The notes under the pieces were generated by a model. That model was given only the letters and a program-made list of their open reading frames with translations, did no database searches and was not told the DNA's origin. From Agrobacterium rosae (GTDB lineage Bacteria; Pseudomonadota; Alphaproteobacteria; Rhizobiales; Rhizobiaceae), in assembly GCF_002915175.1 (NCBI RefSeq), contig NZ_NXEJ01000002.1:92236-156235 (forward strand): a stretch of DNA of 64,000 nucleotides. Direction: 5' to 3'. A program made the translations under genes and the position numbers. This document shows positions 41,687 to 64,000 of the stretch, in pieces. The number at the start of each line of letters is the position of its first letter. Position 1 is the stretch's first letter.

Positions 41687-41763
41687 ATATCGAACCAACC
41701 GGTTCGATATCACTTGATATGTGTCAGGAAAAAGATTAAGTCAATCGAACCGAACGGTTCAGT
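41687..41763. promoter_or_regulatory. Twin TetR operator palindromes
   Basis: Operator 1 at 41687-41710 has perfect ten-base arms ATATCGAACC and GGTTCGATAT around AACC. Operator 2 at 41744-41763 has ATCGAACC, spacer GAAC and the partner GGTTCAGT, perfect only in the inner five bases (GAACC/GGTTC). Centres are 55 bases apart. They occupy the gap between the TetR gene start and the HlyD gene start. Confidence 0.75.
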
Positions 41764-44930: not shown

Positions 44931-45632
44931 TCAAACCTTAGCAGCAGAAACCGTCGCCTCGATATGCTCAACCAGCGCATCCGGCAAACCAAGACGGCCC
45001 GCGAGCAGATCCAGATAGCCGCGCTCTGCCCGGCTGTCGGGCTCGATGGTCAGGCGGGACGCGGTGTAGAGTTCCACCTTCTGCTCTTCGGTCTTGGCAG
45101 CGGCCACCAGTGCGTTGATATCGAGCGGATCGGCAAGTTCTTTCTCGATGAAGGCACCTGCTTCACTATCGAGCTCTGAGACCTGCACCTTTTCCATGAT
45201 GCGGGCGCGCTCTGCCTCGTCTATGTGGCCGTCGGCCTTGGCGGCGGCGATCATGGCCTGCACCAGTGTCAGTGCAAAATTGTTGGAAAGCGTTTCAGAC
45301 TGCGGGTGAAAGGGGGAGTCCACCGGTGGCGGCAACAGTGCCTGAGTGGGCTGCGGTTGCTGCACGGCCTCTGGCTTCTGGCCTGACTGATAATTCTTAT
45401 AGGCGAGGTAGCCCAGACCGGCGATGGCGGCGATGCCACCAACGGCTGCGGCGTTGCCCGCCAACTTGCGACCGGTTTTGGTGCCGAAGATGGCAGCGGC
45501 GATGGCGCCTGCCTTCATCGGATTGTTCTTCGCAATCTGGGTGGCCTGTCCGGCCCGGTCCCGCACGCTTCCCGACAGGCCCGGTACGTTGGAGCCCAAA
45601 AACTGGTCTAGAAGCTTCTTCGCGTCGAACAT
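44931..45632 (-). CDS. DUF533 protein (YebE/TerB-like)
   Basis: A 233-residue protein of the DUF533 family. An N-terminal part with one hydrophobic glycine/alanine-rich helix (about residues 58-77, AGNAAAVGGIAAIAGLGYLA) is followed by a proline/glutamine linker (about 85-110) and a C-terminal all-helical TerB-like domain (about 115-230) with AMIAAAKADGHIDEAERARI. E. coli YebE is an inner-membrane member induced by envelope stress; the molecular role is unknown. The start region is inside a strong hairpin, described separately. Convergent with the efflux genes. Confidence 0.85.
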   Translation of the reverse strand: MFDAKKLLDQFLGSNVPGLSGSVRDRAGQATQIAKNNPMKAGAIAAAIFGTKTGRKLAGNAAAVGGIAAIAGLGYLAYKNYQSGQKPEAVQQPQPTQALLPPPVDSPFHPQSETLSNNFALTLVQAMIAAAKADGHIDEAERARIMEKVQVSELDSEAGAFIEKELADPLDINALVAAAKTEEQKVELYTASRLTIEPDSRAERGYLDLLAGRLGLPDALVEHIEATVSAAKV

Positions 45633-45636
45633 TCAA

Positions 45637-45670
45637 ATCTCCTGTTTTGTTCAATATCAAAACAGGAGAT
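45637..45670 (-). promoter_or_regulatory. Hairpin burying the ribosome binding site of the DUF533 gene
   Basis: ATCTCCTGTTTTG at 45637-45649 and CAAAACAGGAGAT at 45658-45670 are perfect 13-base complements around an eight-base loop. On the minus strand the message reads AACAGGAG, a few bases, then ATG at 45632, so the ribosome binding site is wholly paired in the stem. It could be a translational switch; as DNA it could also be an operator. Confidence 0.7.
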
Positions 45671-45730
45671 AGGGAGTGCGACGACGAATACAAATGGCTG
45701 TAACGTTCACGCAGTCGTGAACGCCAACGC

Positions 45731-46369
45731 TCAGCCGCGCAACGCTGCCGCTTCGGCTGCAAGCTTGGTGATACCAGCCCAGTCACCGGCCGCGATGAGT
45801 TCCTTCGGCGCAACCCACGAGCCGCCGACGCAAACGACGTTCGGCAGCGACAGGTAATCCTTGGCATTCTTTAGCGAAACGCTGCCCGTCGGGCAGAACT
45901 TGATGTCTGCCAGCGGTGAGGACAATGCCTTGAGGTAAGGCGCACCGCCAGCCTGTTCAGCGGGGAAGAATTTCAAAACCTTGTAGCCCTTGTCGCGCAG
46001 ATGCATGACTTCGCTGGCGGTTGCGGCACCCGGCAGAAGCGGAACCTTGGAACCCTTGGCCGCTTCCAGAACGCTTTTGTTGACCCCGGGGCTAACGATA
46101 AAGGTGGAACCTGCCTTGACAGCGGCTTCGAAATCCTTGGCATTGAGAATGGTGCCAGCGCCCACATGCGCGCCTTCGACTTCGTCTGCCACAGCACGGA
46201 TCGCGTCCAGCGCTGCCGGGGTGCGCATAGTGATTTCGATGGCTTTCAAGCCACCTTCGACCAGCGCGCGGGCCAAAGGCACGGCGGATGCGACGTCTTC
46301 GACAATCAGAACAGGCACAACCGGCTGGAGTTTCAGGATGGAAAGCAGCTTTTCGGAATCCTGGGCCAT
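45731..46369 (-). CDS. eda: 2-dehydro-3-deoxy-phosphogluconate aldolase
   Basis: A 212-residue KDPG aldolase that splits 2-keto-3-deoxy-6-phosphogluconate to pyruvate and glyceraldehyde-3-phosphate, the last step of the Entner-Doudoroff pathway. The Schiff-base lysine is K133 in LKFFPAE; E45 and R49 in IEITMRT match the E. coli catalytic numbering. GAGTILN and VSPGVN are also conserved. The ATG at 46369, after GGAGACACC, gives the family length; a longer frame with a non-conserved leader exists upstream. It stands between unrelated genes here, so the rest of the pathway is elsewhere. Confidence 0.93.
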   Translation of the reverse strand: MAQDSEKLLSILKLQPVVPVLIVEDVASAVPLARALVEGGLKAIEITMRTPAALDAIRAVADEVEGAHVGAGTILNAKDFEAAVKAGSTFIVSPGVNKSVLEAAKGSKVPLLPGAATASEVMHLRDKGYKVLKFFPAEQAGGAPYLKALSSPLADIKFCPTGSVSLKNAKDYLSLPNVVCVGGSWVAPKELIAAGDWAGITKLAAEAAALRG

Positions 46370-46519
46370 GATGGTGTCTCCTCTATTGAATCGATTGAAT
46401 TGCGCATTCAATTACCGCGCCAAGCCTGACCTGTCGAGGCAAAACGAAATATTTCAGTTTCATTACTTTTTCATGACAGTTGCATAGGTTACGGTGGCCG
46501 AAATCAGGCAGGTTGTTGA

Positions 46520-48940: not shown

Positions 48941-49013
48941 GCGGTAGGCTTCTCCACCACAGCCGCCGCCTATCCGTCGTCTCTACCTTTTCTAGCGCCT
49001 TCACCCTCTCCGC

Positions 49014-49096
49014 CGTCATCCTCGGGCTTGACCCGAGGATCTGACCACGTTGGATGTTGGGGTTCGTTAGATCCTCGGATCAAGCCCGAGGATGAC
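49014..49096. repeat. Palindromic element A3
   Basis: Left arm 49014-49042 and right arm 49069-49096 follow the A pattern, stem ATCCTCGGG with loop CTTGA or TCAAG. The right arm has one changed base (CTCGGAT instead of CTCGGGT) that weakens its stem. It lies between the convergent trhO and GGDEF/EAL genes, where it could end both transcripts. Confidence 0.82.
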
Positions 49097-49148
49097 CGCG
49101 TGTTGTAGGTTGACGCCACGTTCTAGATGGACGCCACGACATCACACC

Positions 49149-63843: not shown

Positions 63844-64000
63844 AAAATCGAGTGCCGAAAAAATCCGCATTATGATGAAAAATTCCCTTGATTGTTACAG
63901 CGAATATTCTTATCTCCCGTTTGCCCAAAGTCGCACGTGCCCATGTGTGTCCGCCGGACCCTCGATGTGGTGAGGAGTTTGGTAAGGTACCTGGAATTAA

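Follow-up and report, generated by a model that had tools for sequence, protein, structure and literature searches.

The window (the whole stretch of Agrobacterium rosae DNA that was analysed, 64,000 nucleotides) carries on its minus strand a gene for a DUF533 protein of 233 aa (44931-45632, delimited as an open reading frame and by a match to PF04391 with an E value of 8e-57), which is preceded by the co-directional gene eda, encoding KDPG aldolase (45731-46411, minus strand). The stop codon of eda lies 98 nt before the DUF533 ATG. Two minus-strand hairpins occupy this short interval: one found by folding directly behind eda (45701-45726), which lacks a T run and is possibly a weak terminator, and one that abuts the DUF533 start codon and is described below. 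A scan of 45560-46500 detected no terminator-like site between eda and DUF533. Other structured elements of the window include the alphaproteobacterial small RNA ar45 (63923-64000, plus strand; Rfam RF02347, 57.1 bits), which is truncated by the window end; a long inverted repeat at 49011-49100, just after the trhO gene, with 35-nt arms that are 91% complementary and 20 nt apart, which looks like a dispersed palindromic repeat or a terminator; and inverted repeats at 41687-41760 with the arms GAACCAACCGGTTCGAT and ATATCGAACC, located between the genes for a TetR-type regulator and an EmrA-like efflux adaptor, which are likely operators of the adjoining TetR-type regulator.

The hairpin at the DUF533 start is formed by two 13-nt arms (45637-45649 and 45658-45670) that are 100% complementary and spaced by 8 nt. 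Read in the sense of the minus-strand RNA, the repeat search and the fold define a left arm ATCTCCTGTTTTG (45658-45670), which is the anti-Shine-Dalgarno strand, an 8-nt loop (45650-45657), and a right arm CAAAACAGGAGAT (45637-45649), which contains the Shine-Dalgarno (SD) sequence AGGAG (45639-45643). The stem covers the whole SD in the folded leader, and its sequence is not followed by a T run on the 3' side. An earlier note on this DNA had described a perfect 13-bp stem with an eight-base loop over the DUF533 SD, and both the repeat search and the folding bear this out; the spacing of four to five bases that it gave holds for the right arm, which ends 4 nt before the ATG, but not for AGGAG itself, which ends 6 nt before it. 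The minus-strand leader of 131 nt folds into this stem with a z-score of -5.86 (0 of 200 shuffles were equally stable), a value that is partly inflated because the same 131 nt include the hairpin near the eda end.

The left arm also carries part of a promoter-like signature. In RNA sense the leader runs from TTTGTA over 16 nt to CTATCT, and on through what remains of the left arm and through the loop into the right arm, which holds AGGAG. The -10-like box CTATCT (45667-45672, minus strand), recognised by the conservation of CTATnT, overlaps the foot of the left arm, and the -35-like box TTTGTA (45689-45694, minus strand), recognised by the conservation of nTTGnn, lies 16 nt upstream of it. As a sequence match, TTTGTA-N16-CTATCT resembles the sigma70 consensus given for Sinorhizobium meliloti, CTTGAC-N17-CTATAT (PMC2873474), while a scan with an E. 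coli-type consensus returned no promoter at the DUF533 leader. CTATnT is present in 116 of the 127 distinct leaders that adjoin a co-directional eda or a divergent xth, and nTTGnn is found exactly 16 or 17 nt upstream of it in 107 of these 116 boxed leaders, against a background of 101 TTG in 6844 positions; the leaders with this spacing include ones without the extended stem. The box, often as CTATGT, is retained in many Rhizobium leaders that do not have the extended stem, as well as in Brucella/Ochrobactrum-type leaders, whose predicted structure is mostly a short foot or a different fold, and it is thus conserved independently of the extended stem. Elsewhere, a variant box pair of the approximate form TTGnAATG ... 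CCTAC(C) was seen by eye ahead of DUF533 in some of the loci L143, L158, L165, L166 and L176; unusual masking of the SD was not seen at these distant loci.

Since a conserved sigma70-like -10 box lies within the left arm, the own transcript of DUF533 should begin at the top of this arm or in the loop, which would leave the SD open. In S. meliloti, a start was accepted in promoter assignments when it lay 5-12 nt beyond the end of the promoter (PMC3616915), and the range 5-12 nt after the box, which we take as the predicted start range, corresponds to 45654-45661 on the minus strand. Purines, which make up 92.3% of the agrobacterial primary starts reported in PMC10469942, occur within this range at 45658 and 45657. 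The earlier note had named a start inside the left arm as a finding that would speak against its proposal that the folded message shuts out the ribosome, and such a start is what the conserved boxes predict; the proposal stands for any RNA that holds both arms but not for the message as such, whose left arm carries the conserved -10 box.

Neither the hairpin nor the box pair belongs to a repeated family in this genome. A simple script caller, applied to 464 kb from a single contig (the window plus 20 stretches of 20 kb each), yielded a sample of 176 genes with an ATG and an SD-like motif; among these, the longest perfect stems covering the SD measured 13 bp (DUF533), 8 bp (in a single gene) and 7 bp (in three), and 154 of the 176 genes had no SD-covering stem under the script's rule. 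The core of the hairpin, searched as CTATCTCC-N4-24-GGAGAT, has one match in the 5.46-Mb genome (two in the backward-read control), and the box pair, searched as TTTGTA-N15-18-CTATCT, likewise has a single match (two in the control). These counts are no higher than the chance controls, and the core-hairpin count shows only the absence of further copies; a repeated element or regulon was rejected, the core hairpin and the box pair each being single in the genome.

The predicted accessibility of the SD depends on where the RNA begins. For the window leader, opening the SD is predicted to cost about 1.2 kcal/mol for every 5' end located 5-12 nt after the box, 14.4-16.6 kcal/mol if the 5' end coincides with the box's first base or precedes it, and about 16 kcal/mol for RNA entering from the upstream eda. 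Known RNA thermometers (ROSE, fourU) resemble the DUF533 leader in pairing the SD within a leader hairpin, but they differ from it in that the long perfect DUF533 stem is predicted to remain shut at 42 C, the opening costs at 20, 28, 37 and 42 C being 18.0, 16.3, 14.5 and 13.5 kcal/mol, respectively. The earlier note's suggestion that the AT-rich upper stem might open with temperature therefore finds no echo in the prediction, which shows no melting at 20-42 C, and an RNA thermometer was rejected; on the modelled energies a simple thermometer is unlikely. Apart from ar45, the window gave no Rfam match at the gathering cut-off to ROSE, fourU or any other described family.

The co-variation of the two arms was scrutinised through comparison with relatives (134 loci, reduced to 106 distinct printed leaders; 105 distinct leaders in the related comparison). 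Arm swaps between species were performed on 83 distinct inter-box segments, from which four loci without the box and all duplicates were excluded. The native arms of the 19 Agrobacterium-type leaders gave -13.65 kcal/mol compared with -10.63 kcal/mol for swapped arms, and those of the 64 other leaders -9.75 compared with -8.59 kcal/mol, with 0 of 2000 permutations as good in both cases. Swaps with Agrobacterium types gave 0 of 20000 with 11 types and 5 of 20000 with 7 types. Because the leaders are related, all of these swap tests contain fewer independent units than their row counts suggest. The native arm was the best or tied partner in only 8 of the 19 Agrobacterium-type rows and 2 of the 64 other rows. 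Members of the Agrobacterium set were picked by hand, according to record titles and same-genus handles, and some of them bear the title Rhizobium (L087 and L100 among the 19); a 16-type swap set, picked for having stems, does not constitute a test. The ungapped alignment A1 (eight rows, seven distinct) shows eight of the 13 pairs invariant, three changed on both sides, and two departing by mismatches only. Its covariation score exceeded those of all 500 shuffles (500 of 500) and of all six slid versions, and the number of further pair types was not unusual (232 of 500 shuffles); the lower six pairs, which set the -10 box against the SD, are invariant in A1. A gapped alignment, A2, was left out of the pair counts; its gaps break the stem in the shorter rows. 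From one species of the genus to another the upper arms vary in sequence, yet they are largely complementary. Both the arm swaps and the covariation thus indicate that the pairing is kept in close relatives with changes on both sides, the comparison by which the earlier note had proposed to check its hairpin.

The masking of the SD was surveyed over 194 loci, 192 of which had an N-terminal match (L188 and L189 were lost) and 159 of which were used after the removal of 32 duplicates and of L179 (no start codon found). Read-through RNA was defined as starting 120 nt upstream, and own RNA as starting 7 nt after the box. The median predicted cost of opening the SD was 9.4 kcal/mol for read-through versus 2.3 kcal/mol for own RNA in the 97 eda-linked boxed leaders, and 6.2 versus 1.4 kcal/mol in the 19 xth-linked leaders. 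Because a longer RNA is harder to open anyway, shuffled leaders provide the fair control, and an SD was considered unusually closed when at most 3 of 60 shuffles were as closed. By this measure read-through RNA was unusually closed in 59 of the 97 boxed leaders behind a co-directional eda (median z 2.1), compared with 3 of 19 boxed leaders with a divergent xth, 1 of 11 unboxed eda-linked leaders and none of the 3 with eda on the opposite strand; leaders with other or unseen neighbours contributed 1 of 14 and 1 of 15. The closed boxed row of unseen neighbour is L122, on a contig that reaches about 380 nt upstream. In every one of the 59 closed leaders, the best fold pairs the SD with bases 5' of the predicted start: in the box in 44, between box and start in 10, and upstream of the box in five. 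L147 has its left arm almost wholly upstream of the -10-like box, so that, if this box is the -10, its stem would be possible only in RNA that starts further upstream. L142, considered as a second case of this kind, was rejected, because in its short fold the paired bases are different ones and the SD is free.

Closure is widespread within the genus of the window, with 27 of 29 rows closed and upper stems differing, and by title the closed rows also include 5 of 9 of Neorhizobium and 7 of 19 of Rhizobium, as well as Pseudorhizobium, Endobacterium and several other genera. The 38 of 97 eda-linked boxed leaders that were not unusually closed include 12 of the 19 titled Rhizobium and all three of genus code g130. 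Four g95 loci (L042 and L046-L048), which may be Ensifer-like, have eda upstream, no box and no stem. At several loci (e.g. L150, L158, L159, L163, L165, L169 and L170), perhaps Mesorhizobium-like, a trhO-like co-directional ORF lies upstream without masking, while L178, with the same kind of ORF upstream, is nevertheless closed; these ORFs end about 80-140 nt before DUF533, and their resemblance to the TrhO of the window was judged by eye. A rearranged neighbourhood is found in L064 to L073 and other Brucella/Ochrobactrum-type loci, where a divergent xth (exonuclease III) replaces eda upstream (orientation taken from ORFs in four loci and from tblastn in 21). The contrast between eda and xth amounts to one independent pair on the tree, i.e. 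a single phylogenetic event, and the proposition that the stem follows the co-directionality of the upstream gene as a general rule failed on the unmasked trhO-like loci and on this single pair. A quick tree of 107 rows (loci up to L134, 180 aa or longer) gives a minimum of nine changes of the closed state, and 19 changes on the best tree. In L016, eda is followed by a hairpin and T run that should already stop eda read-through, and the stem is still kept.

The conserved boxes, the dependence of closure on the start site and a layout like that of the phage T4 gene e lead us to read the DUF533 hairpin as a gate on translation that is set by the start site and leaves eda read-through untranslated, an explanation to which we give a probability of roughly 55%. 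Its basis is computational and consists of the fold, a conserved promoter-like signature, co-varying arms and the predicted opening costs. RNA coming from upstream by read-through of eda, which we infer to occur, would contain both arms, fold, hide the DUF533 SD and go untranslated in the cell. RNA made from the gene's own putative sigma70-type promoter would have its 5' end inside the left arm or immediately after it, the -10 box belonging to that arm; devoid of the anti-SD strand, this RNA would be translated. At about 22-29 nt, the leader predicted for the own transcript falls short of the 61-nt median reported for agrobacterial leaders (PMC10469942), which counts against such a gate. Given the unmasked relatives and the changes of the closed state, a real gate would be a trait that lineages gain and lose, and not a rule that holds for every co-directional gene pair.

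The strongest competing explanation, which we regard as unlikely, is that the main DUF533 mRNA begins further upstream, contains the hairpin and stays repressed in translation until the stem is opened in trans, as the earlier note proposed, by a factor such as a small RNA or a protein. The complete covering of the SD and the retention of the stem with changes on both sides would suit this arrangement, but the conserved -35/-10-like pair puts the start inside the left arm, the stem is not opened by heat in the prediction, and no Rfam family was matched at the gathering cut-off. It is less probable again that RNA stability or the formation of the eda mRNA 3' end is what the stem is for, either as the remnant left in the own transcript or as it stands in the read-through RNA from eda, the masking of the SD being a by-product of a -10 box that resembles the SD complement. 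This could make a coincidence of the lower six pairs, invariant in A1, and would fit a stem that directly follows eda; against it, the co-varying upper arms extend the same helix, and the stem has no T run after it. Template switching during replication is generally known to perfect short inverted repeats, and it might have produced the stem without any selection on the RNA, the foot being fixed by promoter and SD; the at least nine, and up to 19, changes of the closed state on the tree would agree with such an origin, which we nevertheless consider improbable in view of the 27 of 29 closed rows of the window's genus with their differing upper stems. A DNA palindrome bound by a repressor at the promoter start region, already the less favoured alternative in the earlier note, is very improbable, for although a perfect palindrome beside a -10 box occupies the classic place of an operator, its sequence is not conserved in close relatives, the upper arms varying within the genus and between sister species while staying largely complementary, unlike a site read by a protein, and the searched core pattern is single in the genome.

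A hairpin that gates translation by start site has its closest counterpart in T4 gene e (lysozyme), for which, as also for soc and 49, a long early RNA hides the SD and the RNA from the late promoter does not, the gene e late promoter being located within the DNA of the 5' strand of the hairpin (PMC3014915). In gene e the SD is paired in a helix of the upstream-initiated RNA, and RNA from the gene's own promoter is without the 5' strand and is translated (PMC3014915). In DUF533 the SD is likewise predicted to sit in the 3' strand of a stable hairpin of upstream-initiated RNA, and promoter-like boxes are conserved at the place where such a promoter would be expected, with no promoter returned there by the E. 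coli-type scan. DUF533 differs in being a cellular chromosomal gene with a sigma70-like instead of a phage late promoter, its start site and the effect on translation being predicted only. The T4 genes I-TevI, I-TevII, I-TevIII and segB and the Aeh1 gene mobE similarly have their ribosome binding site sequestered only in transcripts from upstream promoters and free in those from near promoters (PMC2988022), a hiding in upstream-initiated RNA that is predicted for DUF533 as well. These are mobile phage endonuclease genes, whereas DUF533 is a conserved chromosomal neighbour of eda. Fold-back is also known for the read-in RNA of IS10 and IS50. Leaders of IS transposase genes, such as tnp of ISPpu9, hide the ribosome binding site in a leader structure as the DUF533 leader does, but ISPpu9 uses antisense RNAs (PMC8450116), and no mobile element was noticed beside DUF533. 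No bacterial precedent for such gating of read-through was recognised in the openly licensed literature, as judged by titles and the beginnings of abstracts, and absence from print is not claimed. That a chromosomal -10 box doubles as an anti-SD strand, with the choice of start deciding on translation, that the Rhizobiaceae DUF533 gate is kept by compensatory change, with the left arm placed elsewhere in at least one genus, and that it insulates the gene from the read-through of its neighbour, is a set of claims to which we assign slightly less than an even chance.

If the gate on DUF533 is real, a mechanism described for phage T4 would operate at an ordinary chromosomal gene, and the cell would transcribe through this gene and yet translate only the RNA begun at the gene's own promoter. 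RNA-seq counts of read-through would then be no measure of protein output for such genes, and the signature, a -10 box complementary to the SD together with a short leader, could be searched for in other genomes.
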